Shown: positions 53,826-64,000 of the stretch, one piece after another
Position numbering within the stretch: the stretch's first letter is position 1
Layout: every line of letters starts with the position of its first letter
Assembly (NCBI RefSeq): GCF_000238255.3
Contig: NZ_CP011040.1
Location: 372,001-436,000, forward strand
DNA from: Pseudoalteromonas spongiae UST010723-006
GTDB taxonomy: Bacteria; Pseudomonadota; Gammaproteobacteria; Enterobacterales; Alteromonadaceae
Length of the DNA stretch: 64,000 nt
Direction: 5' to 3'
Notes under the pieces: model-generated
What the model was told of the DNA's origin: nothing
The model's database searches: none
Seen by the model: only the letters and a program-made list of their open reading frames with translations
Position numbers and translations under genes: made by a program

Positions 53826-56588
53826 ATGTCACGTTGTGTATTCTGGTTATTTGTTATGTGTAGCTTAGCGTTTTTTGTGCATGCCAACGAGGTTTCGCTG
53901 CCAAAAAATAACGCCGATATTTCTGACGTGATCCATTTTCTTAAAAAGAATTCCATCAACAGTCCAAAAATAGTCATAAGTTATATAGAAGACAACAAGC
54001 TAACGCAAAAAGCGCTTAGCCATGAAGAGAAAATTAAAGTATTAAGCTATTACGCTCAGGCGAATCAATTTATAGGCGAAATTGAAAAAGCTAATGCCCT
54101 GCTAGCAGAAGCATTTACCATAATCAGTAATGGCTCAGTGTCAGCTGACACACAGGCAATTGCCTTGTTTGTGCGCGCTGTTATTAGCAGTGAAACGACA
54201 AAATATACACAAGCACTCAATGATTTAAATGCAGTTATTGCACTTTATCCCAAAGACAGTAATAACAAAAATATTGGTAAGGCTTATCAAACCCTCGCAG
54301 ATACGTATCTACTGATAAATGACTACAAAAATACCTTTGATGCGCTATACAAAAGCCAATTTGTTTTTAAGGCAATGAAAGATCAAACCATGCTCGCTGT
54401 GAGCTATGGTCGCCTTGGTTCGGTCTATCGTTCAATTGGGGATTTCGATAAAGCCCTAGAAAATATGCTTAAATCACTTAAAGCATTAGAGGGTACTCAG
54501 GCTGAAAGGCGAGTTGCAATTACTTACAACAATACCGCAATTATCTATAAAGACTTAGGCCGCTATGATGAAGCGATTAACTTACATAAACGATCGCTCA
54601 TTCTTAAAGAAAAAATTGGTTATCAGCGTGGCATGGTGTATTCCTACAACAACTTGGGCGAAACGTATCGACTAAAAGGCGATAAAGTACAAGCGCAGCG
54701 CTACTTAGATGAAGCACAAGCCCTTGCGGTAAAGCTTAATAATACCATGTTACTTGGTTCTACTTATTTGTATCGAGCACGCATAGCTAAACAAAACAAC
54801 CAGTTAGAGCAAGCGTTAACGCATCTAGACAATGCCATGACGATTTACCAAAAACGAAATTCAAAAGCACGTATATCGGAAGCATGGGTTGAATATGGCG
54901 ATATTTACTTCGCGCAAGGTGATTTTGTAAAAGCTGAAAATAGCTATCAACACGCAATTGAACTGAGTCAGGCTGTGCAAAAAAATGTCGTGACCTTTGC
55001 TGCCTATGAAGGCTTAGTGAACGCGTTAAAACAACAGCAAAATTACCAAAAAGCACTTAATGCATTAATCGTCTATCAAGGGTTGAAATCGGCCTTATTT
55101 GATAAACAAAGCCAACAGCGACTTGAATCCTTAATTGTAGAAAATCAATTATTTAACGCCCAGCAAAAACTAAAGTTTGCTCAGCAAGAGGGTAAGTTAA
55201 AGCAGGCCGAGTTAGAGCGGGTAGAAACACACCGAAACTGGAGCGCTTTTACCCTGGTTGTTATTTTTATTATTAGCTGGTTAATTTATCGAAAAGTGCA
55301 GCAGCATAATCGTATAAAAGTAGAGATCAAAGCGCGTAAAGCATTAGAAGAAAGCGAGCGAAGACTCAACCTCGCTCTTTGGGGCAGCGGCGATACGCTC
55401 TGGGACTGGGACTTAACTAGTGGCGAAATTACGCGCGAAAATTTACCGACACACTCGCGCTTTTCATCAAATGCATCCGGGCTTGATGCAAAAGCACTGA
55501 AAGAGTTTGTGCACCCCGACGACTATTCATCACTTACCGATGCGTTTGACGCCCATATTCGCAATAAAACGCCGTTTTTTGAAGCGAGTTATCGGGTGCT
55601 AGACAAACAAGGTGAATGGTGCTGGTTGCTTGATAGGGGCAAAGTAGTTGATACCGATGAGCATGGTAAAGCATTGCGCATTACCGGAACGCAACGAGAT
55701 ATTACCAAACTAAAGCAACAAGAAGTTGCGCTATTAGAGTTAAACAGTGAGCTTGAGCAGCGCGTTGCACAAAGAACGACTGAACTTGCAACAATGAACC
55801 AGCAACTGATGCATACAATTGAAAAATTAGAAGTTGCTCAAGAGTATATTATTGAAGCCGAAAAACACGCAGCGTTAGGCAGCATGGTTGCGGGGCTTGC
55901 CCATGAAATAAATACCCCGCTCGGCACTGCGATCACTGCCGTAAGCCATCTTAAAATGCAAACAGTGACTACAGAGTCGCAATTTAAAAGTAAAACCTTA
56001 TCAAGCCAAGCGTTTGAGAGTTTCTTAAATGATGTAAATAATAGTAGCGAATTGATTGAAAGTGGGGTTGGTAAGGCGGGTGAACTGGTAGAGCGCTTTA
56101 AACTACTTGCCGGTAAAAATAGCGCACAAAAGCCGACTGTGATAAACCTTGCGACCCTATTATTAGAAAGCTTTAAAGTGGCGTTAAACACGCTGCAACG
56201 TGACCCCGAAACCGCCAACTTAACCATCAGTGGTGATGCGGAGTTAGTTAGCTTTGCGGCAACATTAGCACAGGTATTTAATATTCTTGTAGAAAATGCG
56301 TTACTGCATGCTGATGTACCGTATGTAGAAATAACCTGTGAACTATCTAAAGTAGGCTCAGGTGTTGAAATAAATTTTTATGATAACGGTAAAAACATTC
56401 AGGTTGGCGATGAAAAACGGATATTTGAACCTTTCTATACTCGAAAACGGCAGCGCGGATATGCAGGGCTTGGTTTGCACATTGCGTACAATAACGTAAC
56501 CCAAGACCTTAATGGAAGTATTGAGTGTTACCGTGATGCGAGTAAAGGGCTCGGTTATAAAATAAAGTTACCCTCTATTGAAAGTTAA
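53826..56588 (+). CDS. hybrid-free sensor histidine kinase with periplasmic TPRs and PAS domain
   Basis: 920 aa. Signal peptide (1-20), seven or more TPR repeats in the periplasm (about 60-410), one transmembrane helix (about 472-490), a PAS_3-type PAS domain (about 515-630), a coiled coil, a dimerisation helix with His693 in GLAHEINTPLG, and an ATPase domain (ENALLHADVPYVEI and GLGLHIAYNN). No receiver domain and no response regulator next to it, so its partner is elsewhere. The TPRs probably sense a protein or peptide in the periplasm. Confidence 0.9.
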   Translation: MSRCVFWLFVMCSLAFFVHANEVSLPKNNADISDVIHFLKKNSINSPKIVISYIEDNKLTQKALSHEEKIKVLSYYAQANQFIGEIEKANALLAEAFTIISNGSVSADTQAIALFVRAVISSETTKYTQALNDLNAVIALYPKDSNNKNIGKAYQTLADTYLLINDYKNTFDALYKSQFVFKAMKDQTMLAVSYGRLGSVYRSIGDFDKALENMLKSLKALEGTQAERRVAITYNNTAIIYKDLGRYDEAINLHKRSLILKEKIGYQRGMVYSYNNLGETYRLKGDKVQAQRYLDEAQALAVKLNNTMLLGSTYLYRARIAKQNNQLEQALTHLDNAMTIYQKRNSKARISEAWVEYGDIYFAQGDFVKAENSYQHAIELSQAVQKNVVTFAAYEGLVNALKQQQNYQKALNALIVYQGLKSALFDKQSQQRLESLIVENQLFNAQQKLKFAQQEGKLKQAELERVETHRNWSAFTLVVIFIISWLIYRKVQQHNRIKVEIKARKALEESERRLNLALWGSGDTLWDWDLTSGEITRENLPTHSRFSSNASGLDAKALKEFVHPDDYSSLTDAFDAHIRNKTPFFEASYRVLDKQGEWCWLLDRGKVVDTDEHGKALRITGTQRDITKLKQQEVALLELNSELEQRVAQRTTELATMNQQLMHTIEKLEVAQEYIIEAEKHAALGSMVAGLAHEINTPLGTAITAVSHLKMQTVTTESQFKSKTLSSQAFESFLNDVNNSSELIESGVGKAGELVERFKLLAGKNSAQKPTVINLATLLLESFKVALNTLQRDPETANLTISGDAELVSFAATLAQVFNILVENALLHADVPYVEITCELSKVGSGVEINFYDNGKNIQVGDEKRIFEPFYTRKRQRGYAGLGLHIAYNNVTQDLNGSIECYRDASKGLGYKIKLPSIES

Positions 56589-56985: not shown

Positions 56986-57684
56986 GTGACAAGGACGAAA
57001 TCTCAAGTTTACTTACAAGTTGCCGCTAATGCGCAACAACAAAACACAACGGAAATTCTACTTAAAGTACTCGAAACATTGTGCTTAAACGTAAAGGTAG
57101 AGTCGCTGTTCCCAGCATCAATCGATTCATCGGACAGTGCAGAACTGTATTTAATTTGCGCTAAAGATGCGCCGTGGAATGATATGTTGCCCAGCGCGCT
57201 TATTAATCTGGCGCGTCATCATAAAGTAGTGATTTATGACGCGCATAAAGATAATATTTGCGAGCAATTACTGCTGCTAGCTAATGTTAAAGGTGTTTTT
57301 TACCAAAACGATACACCTGATGTATTGTTTAAAGGCATACAAAAAGTACTGAATAGCGAGTTGTGGTTTCAACGTGGTGCAATTTGTGATGCATTTTCAA
57401 ATCTATTGGCGCTACAGTTGCAACGGCAAGATAGTAGCGGGCACAACGAAGCGTTAGATAAGCTTACTAACCGCGAACGCACAATTATTCGCTTGGTGTC
57501 GCAAGGCGCACAAAATAAAGACGTTGCTGAGCAGCTGCATATTAGTGATCATACGGTCAAAACCCACCTTTACAGTGCGTTTCGCAAAACTAAAGCGCGA
57601 AACCGCATTGAATTGGTTAACTGGGCACAGCAGTTTTTGCCTTCGCTGGTTAAAAGCGGCATTGATATTAGTCACCAAAGTTAA
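56986..57684 (+). CDS. csgD: CsgD-like LuxR-family regulator of curli
   Basis: 232 aa. N-terminal receiver-like domain without the phosphoacceptor pattern I would expect, and a C-terminal LuxR HTH (about 155-215): LTNRERTIIRLVSQGAQNKDVAEQLHISDHTVKTHLYSAFRKTKARNRIELVNWAQ. The VKTHLY and NRIELVNWA elements match E. coli CsgD (VKTHLYNLFKK...NRTQAVSWA). GTG start with AAGGACG. It is about 1 kb from the curli operon, in convergent orientation, so it is very likely its activator. Confidence 0.87.
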   Translation: MTRTKSQVYLQVAANAQQQNTTEILLKVLETLCLNVKVESLFPASIDSSDSAELYLICAKDAPWNDMLPSALINLARHHKVVIYDAHKDNICEQLLLLANVKGVFYQNDTPDVLFKGIQKVLNSELWFQRGAICDAFSNLLALQLQRQDSSGHNEALDKLTNRERTIIRLVSQGAQNKDVAEQLHISDHTVKTHLYSAFRKTKARNRIELVNWAQQFLPSLVKSGIDISHQS

Positions 57685-57871: not shown

Positions 57872-58549
57872 ATGAGGTTATTTAAACTAGCGATGACCGC
57901 TACAGGTGTTTTGGTACTGTCATCTATGCTTTTTTACAATAAGCATGGGATTGCATGCGAGGCCGCGCCGCTGCTTGGATTTGAGCAAATTGATGCGGAA
58001 ATTTATGTTGATGCAACAGTAAGTCAAACAGAACGAGACGCCCTGATAACCTTTGTTGATAAAGCGAAAGAAAGAGTGAGTGCAGCTTTTGGTGATATGA
58101 GTTCAACACCTCGTTATATAGTGACAAAAAAGAGTGCTCAATTTGGCTTTAACCCAACAGGCATGGCCAGAAGCTCATTAACACGAGAGTGTGTTTTTAT
58201 TGGGCCTAAAGGCCTCAATGTCGATGTTATTGCCCACGAAACGTCTCATGCAGAAGTGTTTTATCGCGCAAATTTTATAACTCAAACCTTCAAAATAAAA
58301 CCATGGTTGTTGGAAGGGGCTGGCACATACGTTGATTACAGAGCCGCCCTAAAATTAGAAAATATTGCGCTTGATAATACGATAGTAGAAAAAGTAACAA
58401 TGTTATCCGATTTTTCGCCAAGTGACACAAGGGCTTATCAAGCATCACGAGTTGCATTTGAGAGCATAGACCCTAAAACGTTTTATAAAGGCATCGAGCG
58501 GTTAAACGAAGGTGAAAGTTTCGAATCGGTTTTTGGTTATTCCAACTAG
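57872..58549 (+). CDS. exported gluzincin-like protein between csgD and the curli operon
   Basis: 225 aa. N-terminal signal/anchor (about 6-22). HETSH at 122-126 is an HExxH zinc motif, and Glu148 in WLLEGAGTYVDYR is placed as the third ligand of a gluzincin. This arrangement is typical of peptidase-MA-like proteins. It would act in the periplasm or membrane. It follows the csgD terminator and converges with csgG. A link with curli assembly or turnover is suggested only by position. RBS GGAGG precedes the ATG. Confidence 0.8.
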   Translation: MRLFKLAMTATGVLVLSSMLFYNKHGIACEAAPLLGFEQIDAEIYVDATVSQTERDALITFVDKAKERVSAAFGDMSSTPRYIVTKKSAQFGFNPTGMARSSLTRECVFIGPKGLNVDVIAHETSHAEVFYRANFITQTFKIKPWLLEGAGTYVDYRAALKLENIALDNTIVEKVTMLSDFSPSDTRAYQASRVAFESIDPKTFYKGIERLNEGESFESVFGYSN

Positions 58550-58639: not shown

Positions 58640-59854
58640 TTAGCTTGACTTTAAATTGATAATCACACGTCTGTCGAAAAACAAGCCTTCGTTATCTGCT
58701 GTGTCGTAATGCGCATCATCATCACCACGGGCCATAATGCTTACGCGCTCTTTGGCTATGCCGTTAGTAATGAGGTAGTTGGCGATGGCATTTGAGCGAG
58801 CAAGCGAGAGCGCATGATTGCTTTGGTCGTCACCACGTTTGTCGGCGTAACCAAACAATTCAACGTGAGCTGATTTTTGCTGTGATAATAACGCTAATAC
58901 CTGTTCTAATTGGGTATTATACAGCGGCTCGATTTCAGCGGTTGCCGTTCTAAATTGCACCATAAATGAAATGCTTGGTGCGACGTTACGTTTTACACTT
59001 TGTGCTTTTTGCTGTTTTGCTTTTAATGCAGCAAGTTGCAGCTGTTTTTGTTGGCGGGTTTTAGCAAGTGCAATGCTTTGCTGTTTAGTTGTCCACACCC
59101 CTTTATCAATACCTTTATGCACCAATTCAGAGAGTGCTTTTTCAATCGCCTGTTTGACACAAATATGCATTGGCTCGTTTTCACTAAAGCCAGCCTCCGC
59201 TTCGGCTAAACGCTTGTAGCTTACATAACGGAAAAAGCCTGCACGCATTTCTACGCTGAGTACCTTTTTGGTGGTTGCAACGGAAAGCAACACTTGCCCG
59301 GTACGTACATCAACCGCGCGCAGGTAAATTGAAATAATGTCTTCGCGATATAACTCAGATGCACCAATACCAAAATATTCGGCACCTAAACCACCGGTTT
59401 TTACGTTTGAGTCATAGCTAATCACACCACCTTCAAGAATAATTTTTGCTGTGGTAAGTGGCGGTAATTGAGCAGCTTCATCTTCTTTGTTGGATAGCGC
59501 TGCACGCACAATTTTTCGTTCGGTGAGAATGTTTTGCAGGCCCTCACGTTCAACTGGAATAAACCAGTCTGACTCGTGCAATGCTTGTACTAAAATCGAG
59601 TTCGCCCCTTGCGTCACTGCGGTAGAAAATGAACTGACATTGGTTTGCGGTTTGTATTGTCCGGTTTGGTCGCGAAAAGAATAAACTGATACGGGAATGC
59701 TGCCAGCAGGCGCGGGAAGACCGCTTAGCTCACTGAAGGTTTTTGTTTGAGCAAGCTGCTGTGCCACCTCAAGTTCGGGTGGTAAGGTTTTTTTAATGGT
59801 GCTGCAACCGGCTAATAACACCAACACAATACTAATAAATACACGCCAAATCAT
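58640..59854 (-). CDS. csgG: CsgG curli secretion pore fused to a C-terminal OmpA-like domain
   Basis: 404 aa. Lipobox LAGC with Cys17. Residues about 18-257 match CsgG: TGQYKPQ..SSFSTAVTQGANSILVQAL, WFIPVEREGLQNILTERKIVRA, YDSNVKTGGLGAEYFGIGA and the end GIDKGVW. E. coli CsgG stops about 25 residues later; here a charged coiled coil (258-292) leads into an OmpA-type domain (294-402) with VELFGYADKRG and NHALSLARSNAIANYL. Asp338 and Arg353 are the usual peptidoglycan-binding pair. So the export pore is probably tied to the cell wall. Last gene of the operon; overlaps csgF by 4 bases. Confidence 0.92.
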   Translation of the reverse strand: MIWRVFISIVLVLLAGCSTIKKTLPPELEVAQQLAQTKTFSELSGLPAPAGSIPVSVYSFRDQTGQYKPQTNVSSFSTAVTQGANSILVQALHESDWFIPVEREGLQNILTERKIVRAALSNKEDEAAQLPPLTTAKIILEGGVISYDSNVKTGGLGAEYFGIGASELYREDIISIYLRAVDVRTGQVLLSVATTKKVLSVEMRAGFFRYVSYKRLAEAEAGFSENEPMHICVKQAIEKALSELVHKGIDKGVWTTKQQSIALAKTRQQKQLQLAALKAKQQKAQSVKRNVAPSISFMVQFRTATAEIEPLYNTQLEQVLALLSQQKSAHVELFGYADKRGDDQSNHALSLARSNAIANYLITNGIAKERVSIMARGDDDAHYDTADNEGLFFDRRVIINLKSS

Positions 59855-60288
59855 TCGCCAAACCTCGGTACTTCAACAACCACAACTTCGCCCGTAACCA
59901 TATTGGTAATTTGCACCGTTATGGTGTCGCTACCACTGGTTAAGATTTGAATTTCATAGTCACCGCTGGTGAAAATGGAGTCTTGATTGAACATGCTGTC
60001 TTCTACACCTTCACCAAACGCGAGATCGGTTATTTCGCGCACCATGCGGTTAATATAAGAACGCTCTAATGATTCTTGAAATTTTTCGGCGTAGGTTTTT
60101 TCGTTGATGGGCGCACGGTGTTTGTTTTGTGATTGTGCTTTGTTCAGCAGCATTGCGCCGTTGAGCGGGCTGCCACCAAAACTTGGATTAACCGGCGTAT
60201 ACACTAACTCGGTGCTGACAACACAGCTTGAAAATACCAATAAAACGCTGCTTACTATTATTTTATTTATCATTTTTATGGTTACCAT
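59851..60288 (-). CDS. csgF: curli assembly protein CsgF
   Basis: 145 aa from the ATG at 60288, or 140 aa from the ATG at 60273 (MINKIIVSS), which gives a neater signal peptide; neither has a strong ribosome site. The mature start LVYTPVNPSFGGSPLNGAMLLNKAQSQN is the CsgG-docking segment of CsgF. The C-terminal half (SGDYEIQILTSGSDTITVQITN) is the usual beta domain. CsgF goes through CsgG and holds CsgB at the surface. It overlaps csgE by up to 7 bases and csgG by 4. Confidence 0.92.
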   Translation of the reverse strand: MVTIKMINKIIVSSVLLVFSSCVVSTELVYTPVNPSFGGSPLNGAMLLNKAQSQNKHRAPINEKTYAEKFQESLERSYINRMVREITDLAFGEGVEDSMFNQDSIFTSGDYEIQILTSGSDTITVQITNMVTGEVVVVEVPRFGE

Positions 60289-60677
60289 CCACTGCTTGCT
60301 AAGTCTTCACTTTGCTCAGAAAACTTAGACTTGGCGATTGCGTCAATTGTCGCGAAAATCGCTTGTTCTACTTTATCTTTTACTGGCTCGATGCGACGAC
60401 CCATGTAAGTGGCATAAATTGCTTTGCTATTAACTTCAACAAACAATTTAGTACCAGCGCGCGGTACAACCGCTTCTTTTATTACGACATTAATGCCAGT
60501 AGTGCTTGGCATGTCTTGCCATAACAAACTGTACGAGTGGTAAAACTCTTTACCCGAGCGACTTAATGTTCTGTCGAGTAACAGGCCACTAATTTCAATA
60601 TCTTCGCCATTTGCTTGCGGGCTAAAAGAGGCGCCTAAAAGCGTTAGCGTTATGATTAGTTTTATAATTGAATGCAT
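60282..60677 (-). CDS. csgE: curli assembly protein CsgE
   Basis: 131 aa. Signal peptide ending near ANG-E. The mature protein contains LLLDRTLSRSGKEFYHSYSLLWQD, TGINVVIKEAVVPRAGTKLFVEVN and YATYMGRR, the main CsgE blocks. CsgE is the periplasmic adaptor that caps CsgG and gives specificity for CsgA. Start codon lies only 6 bases after a GC-rich hairpin, and no usual ribosome site is visible in front of it. Confidence 0.92.
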   Translation of the reverse strand: MHSIIKLIITLTLLGASFSPQANGEDIEISGLLLDRTLSRSGKEFYHSYSLLWQDMPSTTGINVVIKEAVVPRAGTKLFVEVNSKAIYATYMGRRIEPVKDKVEQAIFATIDAIAKSKFSEQSEDLASSGW

Positions 60678-60710: not shown

Positions 60711-62219
60711 TTACTGCTGAATAATTGTTGCAGTGTTGTAATCACCCGTTTGCGTTACAGTTACGCTACCTGATGCACTGTAAATACCACCATCCACTAA
60801 GTTGCCGTCGCCAACTTGTGAAATTGATAGTTCAACATCAGAGCCTTGCACTACAAATCCGCCGGTACCCATACCGCCAATCATGTTGTAGTTACCTGTT
60901 TGCGCGATATTAAGCATGTTGCCACTGCCTTCAATTAGTAGATCAAGCGAGTTAATTTCGCCGTTTTGGGCAATATCAAGCGTGTTGTCATTGCTGTCTA
61001 CGGCTGTGCTAAATGTCACCGCTGATTCGTTTTGATTACCTAGCTGCTGCACGTTAATGTCGTTGTTGTAGCTAGTAAGTGATTGATCAGGGTAAGACGA
61101 TTGAACATAGCTGCTATTTTCGTTACCCACTTGCGTGATGTTAACGTCGTTATCGCTACCATTGAAATGTGCTAGATGACTTGCGTTAGCGTCACCGTCT
61201 TGGTGTACGATTAGTTCGTTGTTATCGCCAATTGCGCCAACATACGAGCTATTGTCATTGCCAAGTTGTGTTACTTGGAAATCATTGTTGTCACCAACAA
61301 TGTCACTGCTTGATTCGTTGCCGTCACCATTTTGTTCAACGATTAATTCGTTATCAGAGCCAATAATGTAAGTGCTATCAAACTTGTTGCCTGTGCCTTC
61401 TTGGTCGATTGAAACAGTGTTATCTGAACCTTCAACAATGGCTGCTGTGAAATCATTCTCAGCACCTTCTTGTACAATGCTGATGTCGTTATCGTCGCCC
61501 GTTACTGAGCCAATTACAACGCGCTGCACATCGCCTTGTTGATTTACGCTTAGTTCGTTATTGTGGCCAACCAATTCTTGAACGCCAAGCACGTTCCAAA
61601 AGCCAGACTGTTCAACTTCAATATCGTTTACATCGCCTTGCACGCTCTCTAGATTTGTTTCATTCCAAACGCCCGACTGATTAATGTAAACCGTATTGTC
61701 GTTGCCTTCCATTGCTTGGTTATAAGCCCAATGACCGCCGTCACCTTGCTCAATTGTGATATCGTTATTATCGCCTGTCACAATGTTTACCGCTTCATTA
61801 GAAATACCAAAAAAGCCTGCGCCAGACTGATTTACCGTAATTTGGTTTGCGTCGCCTGTTAGCTCAGTTAGTGCAATGTGTGATGAACCATTTTGGTCGT
61901 ACAATTCAAGGTTGTCGTTACCTTGTGTGTTTAACAGCAAGATATTAGAAGTGCCCACTTGCGTGGTTTGCGTGCTGTTCGCGCTACCTTGCGTTTCAGT
62001 TTTAAGGTAGTTCAAATCGCCTTCTTGCAGTGCAACTAAATCGTTACCAAAAGCAGCACCGGTCTCAGATGTTTGGTTGACAACCATAGTGTTTGCGACA
62101 TTTTGCACAGTGTTATTTGCTTTAACCGATTTACTGTCGTCTTTTGTACTTGCCATTGCCGAAGTAGAGCCAACAGCCAGTGCTACAGCTAAGGCTAGTA
62201 AAGATTTATTCTTATTCAC
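60711..62219 (-). CDS. csgA: large acidic CsgA-type curlin, major fibre subunit
   Basis: 502 aa from a GTG start with AGGAG 8 bases upstream. Signal peptide ending ASA-M or MAS-T (about 21-24). The rest is about 18-20 curlin half-repeats of the form Q-x-G-x2-N, for example NQSGVWN, DQEGTGN, EQNGDGN, TQVGNEN, AQTGNYN, TQTGDYN, spaced about 22-25 residues. E. coli CsgA has five repeats in 131 mature residues. The protein is rich in Asp, Asn, Gly and Glu, with few basic residues. It should form the amyloid fibre. Confidence 0.9.
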   Translation of the reverse strand: MNKNKSLLALAVALAVGSTSAMASTKDDSKSVKANNTVQNVANTMVVNQTSETGAAFGNDLVALQEGDLNYLKTETQGSANSTQTTQVGTSNILLLNTQGNDNLELYDQNGSSHIALTELTGDANQITVNQSGAGFFGISNEAVNIVTGDNNDITIEQGDGGHWAYNQAMEGNDNTVYINQSGVWNETNLESVQGDVNDIEVEQSGFWNVLGVQELVGHNNELSVNQQGDVQRVVIGSVTGDDNDISIVQEGAENDFTAAIVEGSDNTVSIDQEGTGNKFDSTYIIGSDNELIVEQNGDGNESSSDIVGDNNDFQVTQLGNDNSSYVGAIGDNNELIVHQDGDANASHLAHFNGSDNDVNITQVGNENSSYVQSSYPDQSLTSYNNDINVQQLGNQNESAVTFSTAVDSNDNTLDIAQNGEINSLDLLIEGSGNMLNIAQTGNYNMIGGMGTGGFVVQGSDVELSISQVGDGNLVDGGIYSASGSVTVTQTGDYNTATIIQQ

Positions 62220-62237: not shown

Positions 62238-62720
62238 TTATTGCTTGTAAAACGTCACATTCACTTCAATACCGTTACCTATTTGCTGAACTGTAAAGGT
62301 TTGTTCGCCAGCTTGAGAGATATTGGCGGTATTGCCGTCGCCTTGTTGCAGTATGTGTGCTTGGTTGTTATTTCCTTGTTGTAACAGGTTTACAACGTTA
62401 TTTGCGCCATACTGAAACAACGCAGCTTCGTTGTTAGTACCGTATTGGGTAACATGCGCTTGATTGGACGTTTCGTTTATTTGATTAACTGTTGCTTTGT
62501 TTAAAATCCCGTACTGAGTGATAACCACTTGATGCTGTTGCGCACCTACTCGGTATTGCAGGGAAGTATTTAGACTGAGAGAAAGAGGAGATTCTTGTAG
62601 GTCCTTCGCTAATGCTAAGTGAGAATTACTAAGCGCCGCTAAGTAAAATACAGAGGTGCGCAAAATCGTACCTAACGATTTGCATATACCAGATTGAGTT
62701 TTACAGAGTTTTGCTTTCAT
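62238..62720 (-). CDS. csgB: CsgB-type curlin nucleator
   Basis: 160 aa from the ATG at 62720. Unusually long signal region (about 40 residues, ending LALA-K). The mature part has five curlin-type units with QYGILNKA, QYGTNNEA, QYGANNVV, QQGNNNQA, QQGDGNTA and ends with the irregular FTVQQIGNGIEVNVTFYK, as in CsgB nucleators. First gene of csgBAEFG, 18 bases before csgA. Likely starts fibre growth at the cell surface together with CsgF. Confidence 0.85.
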   Translation of the reverse strand: MKAKLCKTQSGICKSLGTILRTSVFYLAALSNSHLALAKDLQESPLSLSLNTSLQYRVGAQQHQVVITQYGILNKATVNQINETSNQAHVTQYGTNNEAALFQYGANNVVNLLQQGNNNQAHILQQGDGNTANISQAGEQTFTVQQIGNGIEVNVTFYKQ

Positions 62721-63116
62721 CACAGAATTTTAGAGTAAGAACACGACAGCGATTAAATTACTATTTTTACGAAAGCGAGCGCTATCAGCCAAATTTGTGC
62801 TTCTTGAATTTCAGCTAATAAACAATAGCTTATGTTGTTTTTTACGGTGGCGTTAAATATTTGTGAAAGGCCAGCTACCAAAAAAGTGCTAGTCATAAAA
62901 CAGTCATATTTAATTGAACAAAAACACCCAAATGAAATTAATTCCAATAAAAATCAGCTGGTTAAAGGTTTTGTTGATTTTTATTTATATTAACGCTTGC
63001 GCCTTTGTTGGGAACTGTGTTTGATAAAAAGGTTGCTTAAAAATTTAGATTGAAGAGTTGTTGAGATAGGTGCTCGATTGTCGAGCGTACATTTTATAAA
63101 AAATGGAATTTCAATA
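62721..63116. other. divergent promoter region of the curli operon and a second S8 protease
   Basis: 396 bases. It must hold the csgB promoter on the minus strand and the protease promoter on the plus strand. No gene that I would accept is present. CsgD is expected to act here, but I can assign no site from the sequence alone. Confidence 0.45.
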
Positions 63117-64000
63117 ATGAAAGCGAAACTTTCTGCAATTTCACTTGCTTTGCTTCCTTTGGTGGCAAGCGCATCAGCAACAGCGACACCAGCGGTTAAA
63201 AGCGCTGACGGTTACAAAAATAACTCAGTTATTGTTGTGTACAAACAACATGCTCGCGCAGCAGATAAAGCAGCTGCACGTAAGCTTGTAGCTGCGACTA
63301 TTTCAGATGCAAACCTTGATGAAATAGATGATCGTTATAACCACATTCTTAAAGGTCGTATGGCGCAATACACGTTGAATGATAACGATGTAAAAGGCGC
63401 AATATCAAAACTGCAAAATCACCCAGCAGTAGAATATGTAGAGCCTGATCATATTGTGTCGATTAATGCACAACCTGATGATCCACAGTTCAGTGATTTA
63501 TGGGGCCTTCACAACACAGGTCAAACCGGTGGCACAAATGATGCCGATATTGATGCGCCAGAGGCTTGGGATATCTCAACCGGTAGTCGCGACGTTGTCG
63601 TGGGCATTATCGATACGGGTGTTGACCATACACACGAAGACATTCAAGCCAATGCGTGGGTTAACCCAAATGAAATCGCAGGCGATGGCATCGATAACGA
63701 TGGCAATGGCTACATTGACGATATTCACGGTATAAATGCAATTACCGATGTGGGCGACCCAATGGATGACCAAGGTCACGGTACCCACGTTGCGGGCACA
63801 ATTGGTGCAACGGGTAACAATAGCCAAGGTGTAGTGGGTGTTAACCACTCTGTATCTATGGTTGGTTGTAAGTTCTTATCAGCACAAGGCACGGGTTCAA
63901 CTTCAGATGCAATTAAATGTATCAACTACATGGTTGGCTTAAAAAATGCTGGTGTCGATATCAAGGTACTAAACAACAGCTGGGGTGGCGGTGGCTTTAG
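63117..64000 (+). CDS. secreted S8 serine protease (3' truncated by window)
   Basis: 294 codons visible from the ATG at 63117, open to the window end. Signal peptide ending near ASA-S (about 20), an I9-like propeptide (about 35-117), then the S8 domain with Asp166 (IIDTGVDH) and His221 (GHGTHVAG); the Ser would lie beyond the window. A calcium-binding loop DGIDNDGNGYIDD is at 190-202, typical of larger bacterial S8 enzymes. Different type from the 618-residue protease at 10375. Divergent from the curli operon. Confidence 0.93.
   Translation, partial: MKAKLSAISLALLPLVASASATATPAVKSADGYKNNSVIVVYKQHARAADKAAARKLVAATISDANLDEIDDRYNHILKGRMAQYTLNDNDVKGAISKLQNHPAVEYVEPDHIVSINAQPDDPQFSDLWGLHNTGQTGGTNDADIDAPEAWDISTGSRDVVVGIIDTGVDHTHEDIQANAWVNPNEIAGDGIDNDGNGYIDDIHGINAITDVGDPMDDQGHGTHVAGTIGATGNNSQGVVGVNHSVSMVGCKFLSAQGTGSTSDAIKCINYMVGLKNAGVDIKVLNNSWGGGGF

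Follow-up and report, generated by a model that had tools for sequence, protein, structure and literature searches.

A CsgG-OmpA fusion protein of Pseudoalteromonas as a probable wall-anchored curli export pore

Introduction

Escherichia coli CsgG is a nine-subunit outer membrane pore (PMC7304575, PMC4389571). The csgG gene of Pseudoalteromonas spongiae UST010723-006 raises the question of whether such a pore can carry its own cell wall anchor. The gene lies within a 64,000-nucleotide stretch of contig NZ_CP011040.1 (the window, to which all coordinates refer), and a sequence-only reading had proposed that its product is CsgG fused to an OmpA-type peptidoglycan-binding domain that ordinary CsgG lacks. 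The questions are whether this fusion is real, how it is distributed, how often it arose and what its tail is likely to do.

Results

An intact gene encodes CsgG joined to an OmpA-type domain

The fusion gene is an intact open reading frame encoding 404 residues. The sequence-only reading had located it exactly but left the strand unstated: it is the minus strand, and the plus-strand translation of the same interval is closed by many stops. The gene and its parts are as follows.

58640..59854, minus strand: csgG-ompA fusion gene, intact open reading frame matching PF03783 and PF00691; same fusion in five other Pseudoalteromonas genomes
59804..59854, minus strand: putative lipoprotein signal peptide, residues 1-17, lipobox LAGC with Cys17, read from the sequence
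59087..59716, minus strand: CsgG domain, residues 47-256, from PF03783, E. coli CsgG structures and Foldseek
58967..59083, minus strand: Q/K/A-rich linker, residues 258-296, poorly conserved as judged by identity between fused genomes; low-confidence model
58688..58954, minus strand: predicted OmpA-like peptidoglycan-binding domain, residues 301-389, PdsO-like by PF00691, TIGR03789 and tree
58841..58843, minus strand: codon of Asp338, equivalent of OmpA Asp271, present in 7 of 7 fusions
58796..58798, minus strand: codon of Arg353, equivalent of OmpA Arg286, present in 7 of 7 fusions

The N-terminal part is a curli-type CsgG. Pfam PF03783 matched residues 47-256 (E 2.7e-83, 278.9 bits against a cut-off of 20.8), and phmmer aligned residues 4-258 with E. 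coli CsgG 3x2r (E 3.6e-72), which bears out the earlier view that the translation tracks the E. coli protein to about residue 257. Like E. coli CsgG (4uv3, 4q79, 6l7a, 6lqh), the window protein has the CsgG domain over its full length (46% identity by tblastn) and a putative lipoprotein signal, and its gene adjoins csgE, csgF, csgA and csgB. Unlike E. coli CsgG, it has about 147 extra C-terminal residues with the OmpA-type domain and, in the alignment, one additional residue in the loop that forms the constriction of the E. coli pore. The lipidation signal is putative: L-A-G-C17, which we take to be a lipobox, was read by eye, and (L/I)(A/S)GC occurs in all seven fusions described below. The NCBIfam equivalog NF011731 (CsgG) gave the window protein 253.7 bits, below its cut-off of 505, which the G147, G103 and G102 fusion proteins likewise missed. 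This model is probably tuned to enterobacterial CsgG, such that the miss would bar the narrow equivalog name and not the assignment to curli-type CsgG. The model for HfaB, a holdfast-anchoring CsgG relative, gave 38.3 bits against a cut-off of 300 (NF037935), and in a CsgG tree the window CsgG part clustered with the curli CsgG proteins of Pseudoalteromonas.

The tail is recognized by sequence profiles as an OmpA-type domain. PF00691 matched residues 301-389 (E 5.1e-16, 59.3 bits against a cut-off of 27.2), and phmmer matched residues 298-402 to PA0833 (6jfw, E 1.6e-8) and residues 297-401 to Acinetobacter baumannii OmpA (3td3, E 8.6e-6); the tail also aligns with the YiaD and Pal domains. Both Pfam domains also scored above their cut-offs in the five other fusions scanned, and the sixth, G063, which lay outside the Pfam scan, is 99% identical to the window protein. 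The proposed two-domain architecture thus stands and is shared with other species. A. baumannii OmpA uses Asp271 and Arg286 to bind diaminopimelate (cited in PMC5974059). Asp338 and Arg353 of the window protein, found where the sequence-only reading had put them, are spaced 15 residues apart, and their equivalence to the A. baumannii pair is based on motif and spacing rather than superposed structures. Of 46 OmpA domains compared, all have the Arg and 41 the Asp; hence, the site is a feature of the family as a whole and not a mark of the fusion tails.

An AlphaFold2 model of the full-length protein was poor (pLDDT 52). Foldseek nevertheless matched it to CsgG structures (4uv2, E 1.8e-18) and, at rank 46, to the OmpA-diaminopimelate complex 3td4 (E 4.9e-4). 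A model of the tail by itself (pLDDT 55) had no Foldseek match reaching E 0.001; domains of translation factor IF3 ranked first, and no OmpA domain was among the best 50 matches listed. Given the poor models and the lack of OmpA support from the tail model, the fold assignment rests on the profiles. In the low-confidence model the linker is a single helix (residues 257-288). It had been described as a coiled coil, which is doubtful: the best heptad register of residues 258-297 has 45% I/L/M/V/F at the a and d positions in a crude count, and the linker is poorly conserved.

The fusion gene closes a normal curli operon

The gene is the last of a csgBAEFG operon, preceded on its strand by csgB, csgA, csgE and csgF, in agreement with the earlier statement that csgG is in its normal operon place. 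The csgF and csgG genes overlap in ATGA.

59851..60288, minus strand: csgF (PF10614, E 4.4e-26), four-base overlap with the csgG start
60282..60677, minus strand: csgE (PF10627, E 1.2e-29)
60711..62219, minus strand: csgA-like major curlin, 502 residues, curlin repeats (PF07012, nine stretches, E 8.4e-40)
62238..62723, minus strand: csgB-like curlin, 161 residues (PF07012, E 5.6e-13)
56986..57684, plus strand: csgD-like LuxR-type regulator with a VpsT-like receiver (PF00196, E 1.6e-17), divergent, downstream of csgG

This order, including the place of csgD, is that given for Alteromonas and Pseudoalteromonas (Dueholm et al. 2012, PMC3521004). Twelve Pseudoalteromonas genomes having plain CsgG showed the same operon order with an S8 protease gene upstream (csgB was not detected in six of these).

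Three other genes flank the operon. A TPR-PAS-histidine kinase of 920 residues (53826-56588, plus strand) lies beside csgD; within the stretches fetched it was at this place in four of the six fused Pseudoalteromonas genomes and in none of 13 plain genomes, and is possibly a curli regulator of the fused lineage. The plain genomes G030 and G038 have a 29% identical relative of this kinase on the opposite side of the operon. Between csgD and csgG, 57872-58549 (plus strand) encodes a 225-residue protein that had no Pfam match; its N-terminus is hydrophobic, and an HExxH motif (AHETSH) was read by eye. It was found at this place only in the window genome (G000) and G063 of the 20 genomes fetched; a relative with 50% identity lies near the G147 operon. 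Upstream of csgB and divergent from it, a subtilase (S8) with a propeptide begins at 63078 (63078-63998, plus strand, running past the window end); it was present at this place in 20 of 20 fetched genomes and is thus a constant neighbour of their curli operons. Scanning the region for repeats and promoters gave nothing useful.

The fusion is rare and sharply bounded

With a limit of E 1e-10, csgG was found in 86 of 108 Pseudoalteromonas genomes. Six of these (G000, G063, G097, G044, G103 and G102) encode the intact, stop-free fusion, whereas the other 80 have plain CsgG. The boundary is sharp: the plain proteins, which are 67-80% identical to the fusion over the matched part, stop 1-21 residues past the equivalent of residue 257. 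Outside the genus we counted 150 csgG-bearing genomes (66 from the family, 67 from the order and 17 from the class and phylum), one of which, G147 from another genus of the same family, has a fusion, its tail being of the Pal type. Fusions thus total 7 of 236 csgG-bearing genomes, counts that derive from samples drawn evenly out of larger groups and leave out 52 class-search genomes having mostly distant CsgG-family proteins. For genomes outside a 105-locus CsgG set, fused and plain were distinguished by the end of the match and the length of the open frame. The survey of CsgG homologues therefore found the fusion in five further genomes of the genus plus G147, and the remark that ordinary CsgG lacks an OmpA domain holds for 229 of the 236.

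That a sequencing or assembly error joined two genes has a negligible probability, since the same intact fusion occurs in six genomes and nothing was found in favour of an error; the five besides the window genome exclude a sequencing error. The sequence-only reading had already considered an assembly artefact unlikely. Read-through into a neighbouring ompA gene was also considered and rejected: no OmpA-like frame lay beside any of 73 plain csgG loci (about 1.5 kb of flank, blastp E 1e-4, frames of at least 50 residues).

Among 32 loci chosen for long frames or doubt, none had a C-terminal OmpA match, whereas two fused controls were positive; this check left out one long class-search frame (G809, 347 residues). 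In one of the 32, L282, residues 92-151 matched OmpA weakly (14.7 bits, E 5e-4); this stretch lies at and before the CsgG part. A different tail was seen at L274 (G1226, frame 1346-2794), a distant CsgG with a C-terminal extension of about 210 residues rich in Pro, Ala and Thr and lacking an OmpA domain.

Searches for phage or plasmid versions found no place covering 80% of the query, and a search of viral contigs with the tail gave no relative. CsgG-like proteins do occur in fifteen viral contigs (loci L190-L204), at about 42-46% identity to the window CsgG part and with no tail in the stretch that matched. Among phages, CsgG is known from those of Pelagibacter and Methylophilales.

The fusion has at least two independent origins

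In a tree of 105 CsgG domains (a set without L047, L053, L054 and the order-level loci L059-L081), the six Pseudoalteromonas fusions grouped as one clade (SH-aLRT 88, not starred), with G147 elsewhere in the tree, and starred branches forced two changes. The tails behaved likewise. In a tree of 46 OmpA domains, a selection from these genomes rather than all matches, the six tails formed a clade (100/99) inside a group with PdsO-like proteins (100/99), and the G147 tail joined Pal-like proteins (98/89); profiles were used to check three of the 11 domains labelled PdsO and three of the six Pal-like ones. TIGR03789 (PdsO) was the best OmpA-type model for all three window-type fusions scanned (108-118 bits), and TIGR02802 (Pal) was best for the G147 tail (110 bits against a cut-off of 125). 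By these trees the fusion has at least two independent origins, one with a PdsO-type tail in Pseudoalteromonas and one with a Pal-type tail in G147; a single origin for all seven is ruled out by the two changes forced in the CsgG tree together with the tail tree.

The relationship to PdsO is partial. The best relatives of the window tail in 12 genomes searched were PdsO-like (30-39% identity, three of them profile-confirmed). TIGR03789 scored the window protein at E 6.1e-31 and 107.9 bits, below the full-protein cut-off of 152.2; unlike PdsO, the tail matches only positions 100-242 of the 243-position profile, the first part being missing. A sortase-system neighbourhood is a feature of PdsO, whereas the fusion has curli genes, a regulator and a protease for neighbours. 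The tail shares the OmpA fold and Asp/Arg site with Pal (TIGR02802), the type found in the G147 tail, but Pal is not the nearest relative of the window tail. The window genome keeps a separate pdsO gene (contig C1, 581 kb), divergent from a response regulator; hence, the domain was copied and not moved.

A gyrB tree of 50 genomes, which took in 20 of the 80 plain Pseudoalteromonas genomes, placed the six fused genomes in one group (84/63, weak) at the base of the genus, against 42 other genomes of the genus (100/98). In a smaller tree of 28 genomes the two parts of the fused group were unresolved. Inheritance of the fusion within one lineage is the simplest reading. The CsgG tree differs: there the six fusions are next to ten plain genomes that form a clade (SH-aLRT 80), away from the base of the genus, and thus csgG may have been exchanged inside Pseudoalteromonas. 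Import of a special curli operon into the fused lineage was set aside, there being no clear sign of it: for csgE, csgF, csgD and csgA, fused and plain genomes differ by 2-7 points more than plain genomes differ from one another (plain set without G128 and G147), and gyrB also groups the six.

The 22 genomes of the genus in which csgG was not found are scattered over the gyrB tree, none of them among the fused group. These absences require at least nine changes, which suggests frequent loss or regain of curli in Pseudoalteromonas.

The tail is under purifying selection

Codon differences were counted between the near-identical pair formed by the window genome and G063. Of 106 codons in the OmpA part, nine differed synonymously and one nonsynonymously; the counts were 28 and zero in the CsgG part (238 codons) and six and three in the linker (39 codons). 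Hence, the tail is under purifying selection. For more distant fused pairs synonymous sites are near saturation, which makes dN/dS unreliable. Among the fused Pseudoalteromonas genomes, this pair left aside, identity was 87-95% for the CsgG part, 47-84% for the tail and 14-57% for the linker, and thus the tail changes faster than the pore part.

These figures bear on the view that the tail is a neutral passenger, fixed by chance in one lineage and having no selected role. The rarity of the fusion (7 of 236) and the lower conservation of the tail relative to the pore would suit such a passenger. However, the short-range excess of synonymous over nonsynonymous changes, the retention of an intact tail with both key residues in six genomes at tail identities down to 47% and the existence of a second origin all speak against it, and we regard a neutral passenger as very improbable.

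Discussion

We favour the reading that the window gene product is a wall-anchored curli export pore, to which we assign a probability of about 0.7. In this proposal the N-terminal CsgG part would be lipidated and build the outer membrane pore ring. The C-terminus of ordinary CsgG is on the periplasmic side of the membrane. In E. coli CsgG the last residues are disordered or cut by chymotrypsin, and the protein has been purified with C-terminal tags (PMC7304575, PMC4389571). The C-terminus being accessible and periplasmic, a tail added after residue 257 would hang in the periplasm. There the chain would run on through the helix-prone linker of about 40 residues, perhaps long enough for the tail to touch the wall, into the OmpA-type domain, which would grip peptidoglycan diaminopimelate through Asp338 and Arg353. 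Each pore would then be ringed by wall anchors, of which a nonamer would have nine. The ring would keep the pore from moving sideways, and the pull on curli fibres attached to surfaces would reach the wall and not only the outer membrane. Against an anchor it must be said that most curli-bearing relatives lack the domain, and hence that it is not needed for export.

The tail could instead be a protein-binding module that no longer anchors to the wall and either steers CsgE or CsgA into the vestibule or contacts a PdsO/sortase system. PdsO, its nearest relative, is sortase-associated by name and has no known function, and thus the conserved Asp and Arg may serve some other purpose. The tail would also sit at the periplasmic mouth, where CsgE caps CsgG in E. 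coli (PMC6957492), and could act on CsgE. However, both residues of the diaminopimelate site are kept in all seven fusions, and the second fusion used a Pal-type domain such that what the two tails have in common is the OmpA fold and this site. Moreover, CsgE is not strikingly diverged in the fused genomes (mean identity 48% between fused and plain genomes, 53% among 12 plain genomes). We therefore consider a binding module unlikely, although better placed than a neutral passenger, and prefer the wall anchor.

Wall anchoring has precedents in other machines. The OmpA-type domains of PorE and TagL have been proposed to anchor the T9SS (PMC7192894) and the T6SS (PMC8253398) to the wall, and the force computed for extracting the adhesin AtaA is roughly twice as high with a periplasmic partner (PMC13082670). 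The role proposed here for the curli fusion resembles that of PorE, TagL, GspB/OutB of the T2SS and TpgA of AtaA, a periplasmic reinforcement proposed in those systems to act mostly via peptidoglycan (PMC7192894, PMC13082670, PMC8253398, PMC9239104). Those anchors are separate proteins, whereas here the putative anchor is fused to every pore subunit. Our literature search, which covered the titles and abstract beginnings of open-licence papers, found no description of a CsgG-OmpA fusion. The main text of PMC3521004 has neither "OmpA" nor "peptidoglycan" and reports no effect of CsgA size on the size of CsgG. CsgG, the OmpA domain and the wall anchoring of secretion machines were already known; what appears to be new is the presence of both domains in one pore protein, twice.

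The PdsO-type and Pal-type fusions, both from one family and of at least two origins, may define a class of wall-tethered curli machines having an anchor on each subunit and a wall that bears the tension, a generalization we hold slightly more probable than its opposite. Curli attachment under shear and fixation of the pore in the envelope are not addressed in the parts of the literature consulted. CsgG is used in nanopore sensing, and the fusion is a natural design for wall-anchored CsgG pores. For the bacteria themselves, a natural fusion that has arisen twice, each time with another donor, suggests that a connection of the curli pore to the cell wall is selected.
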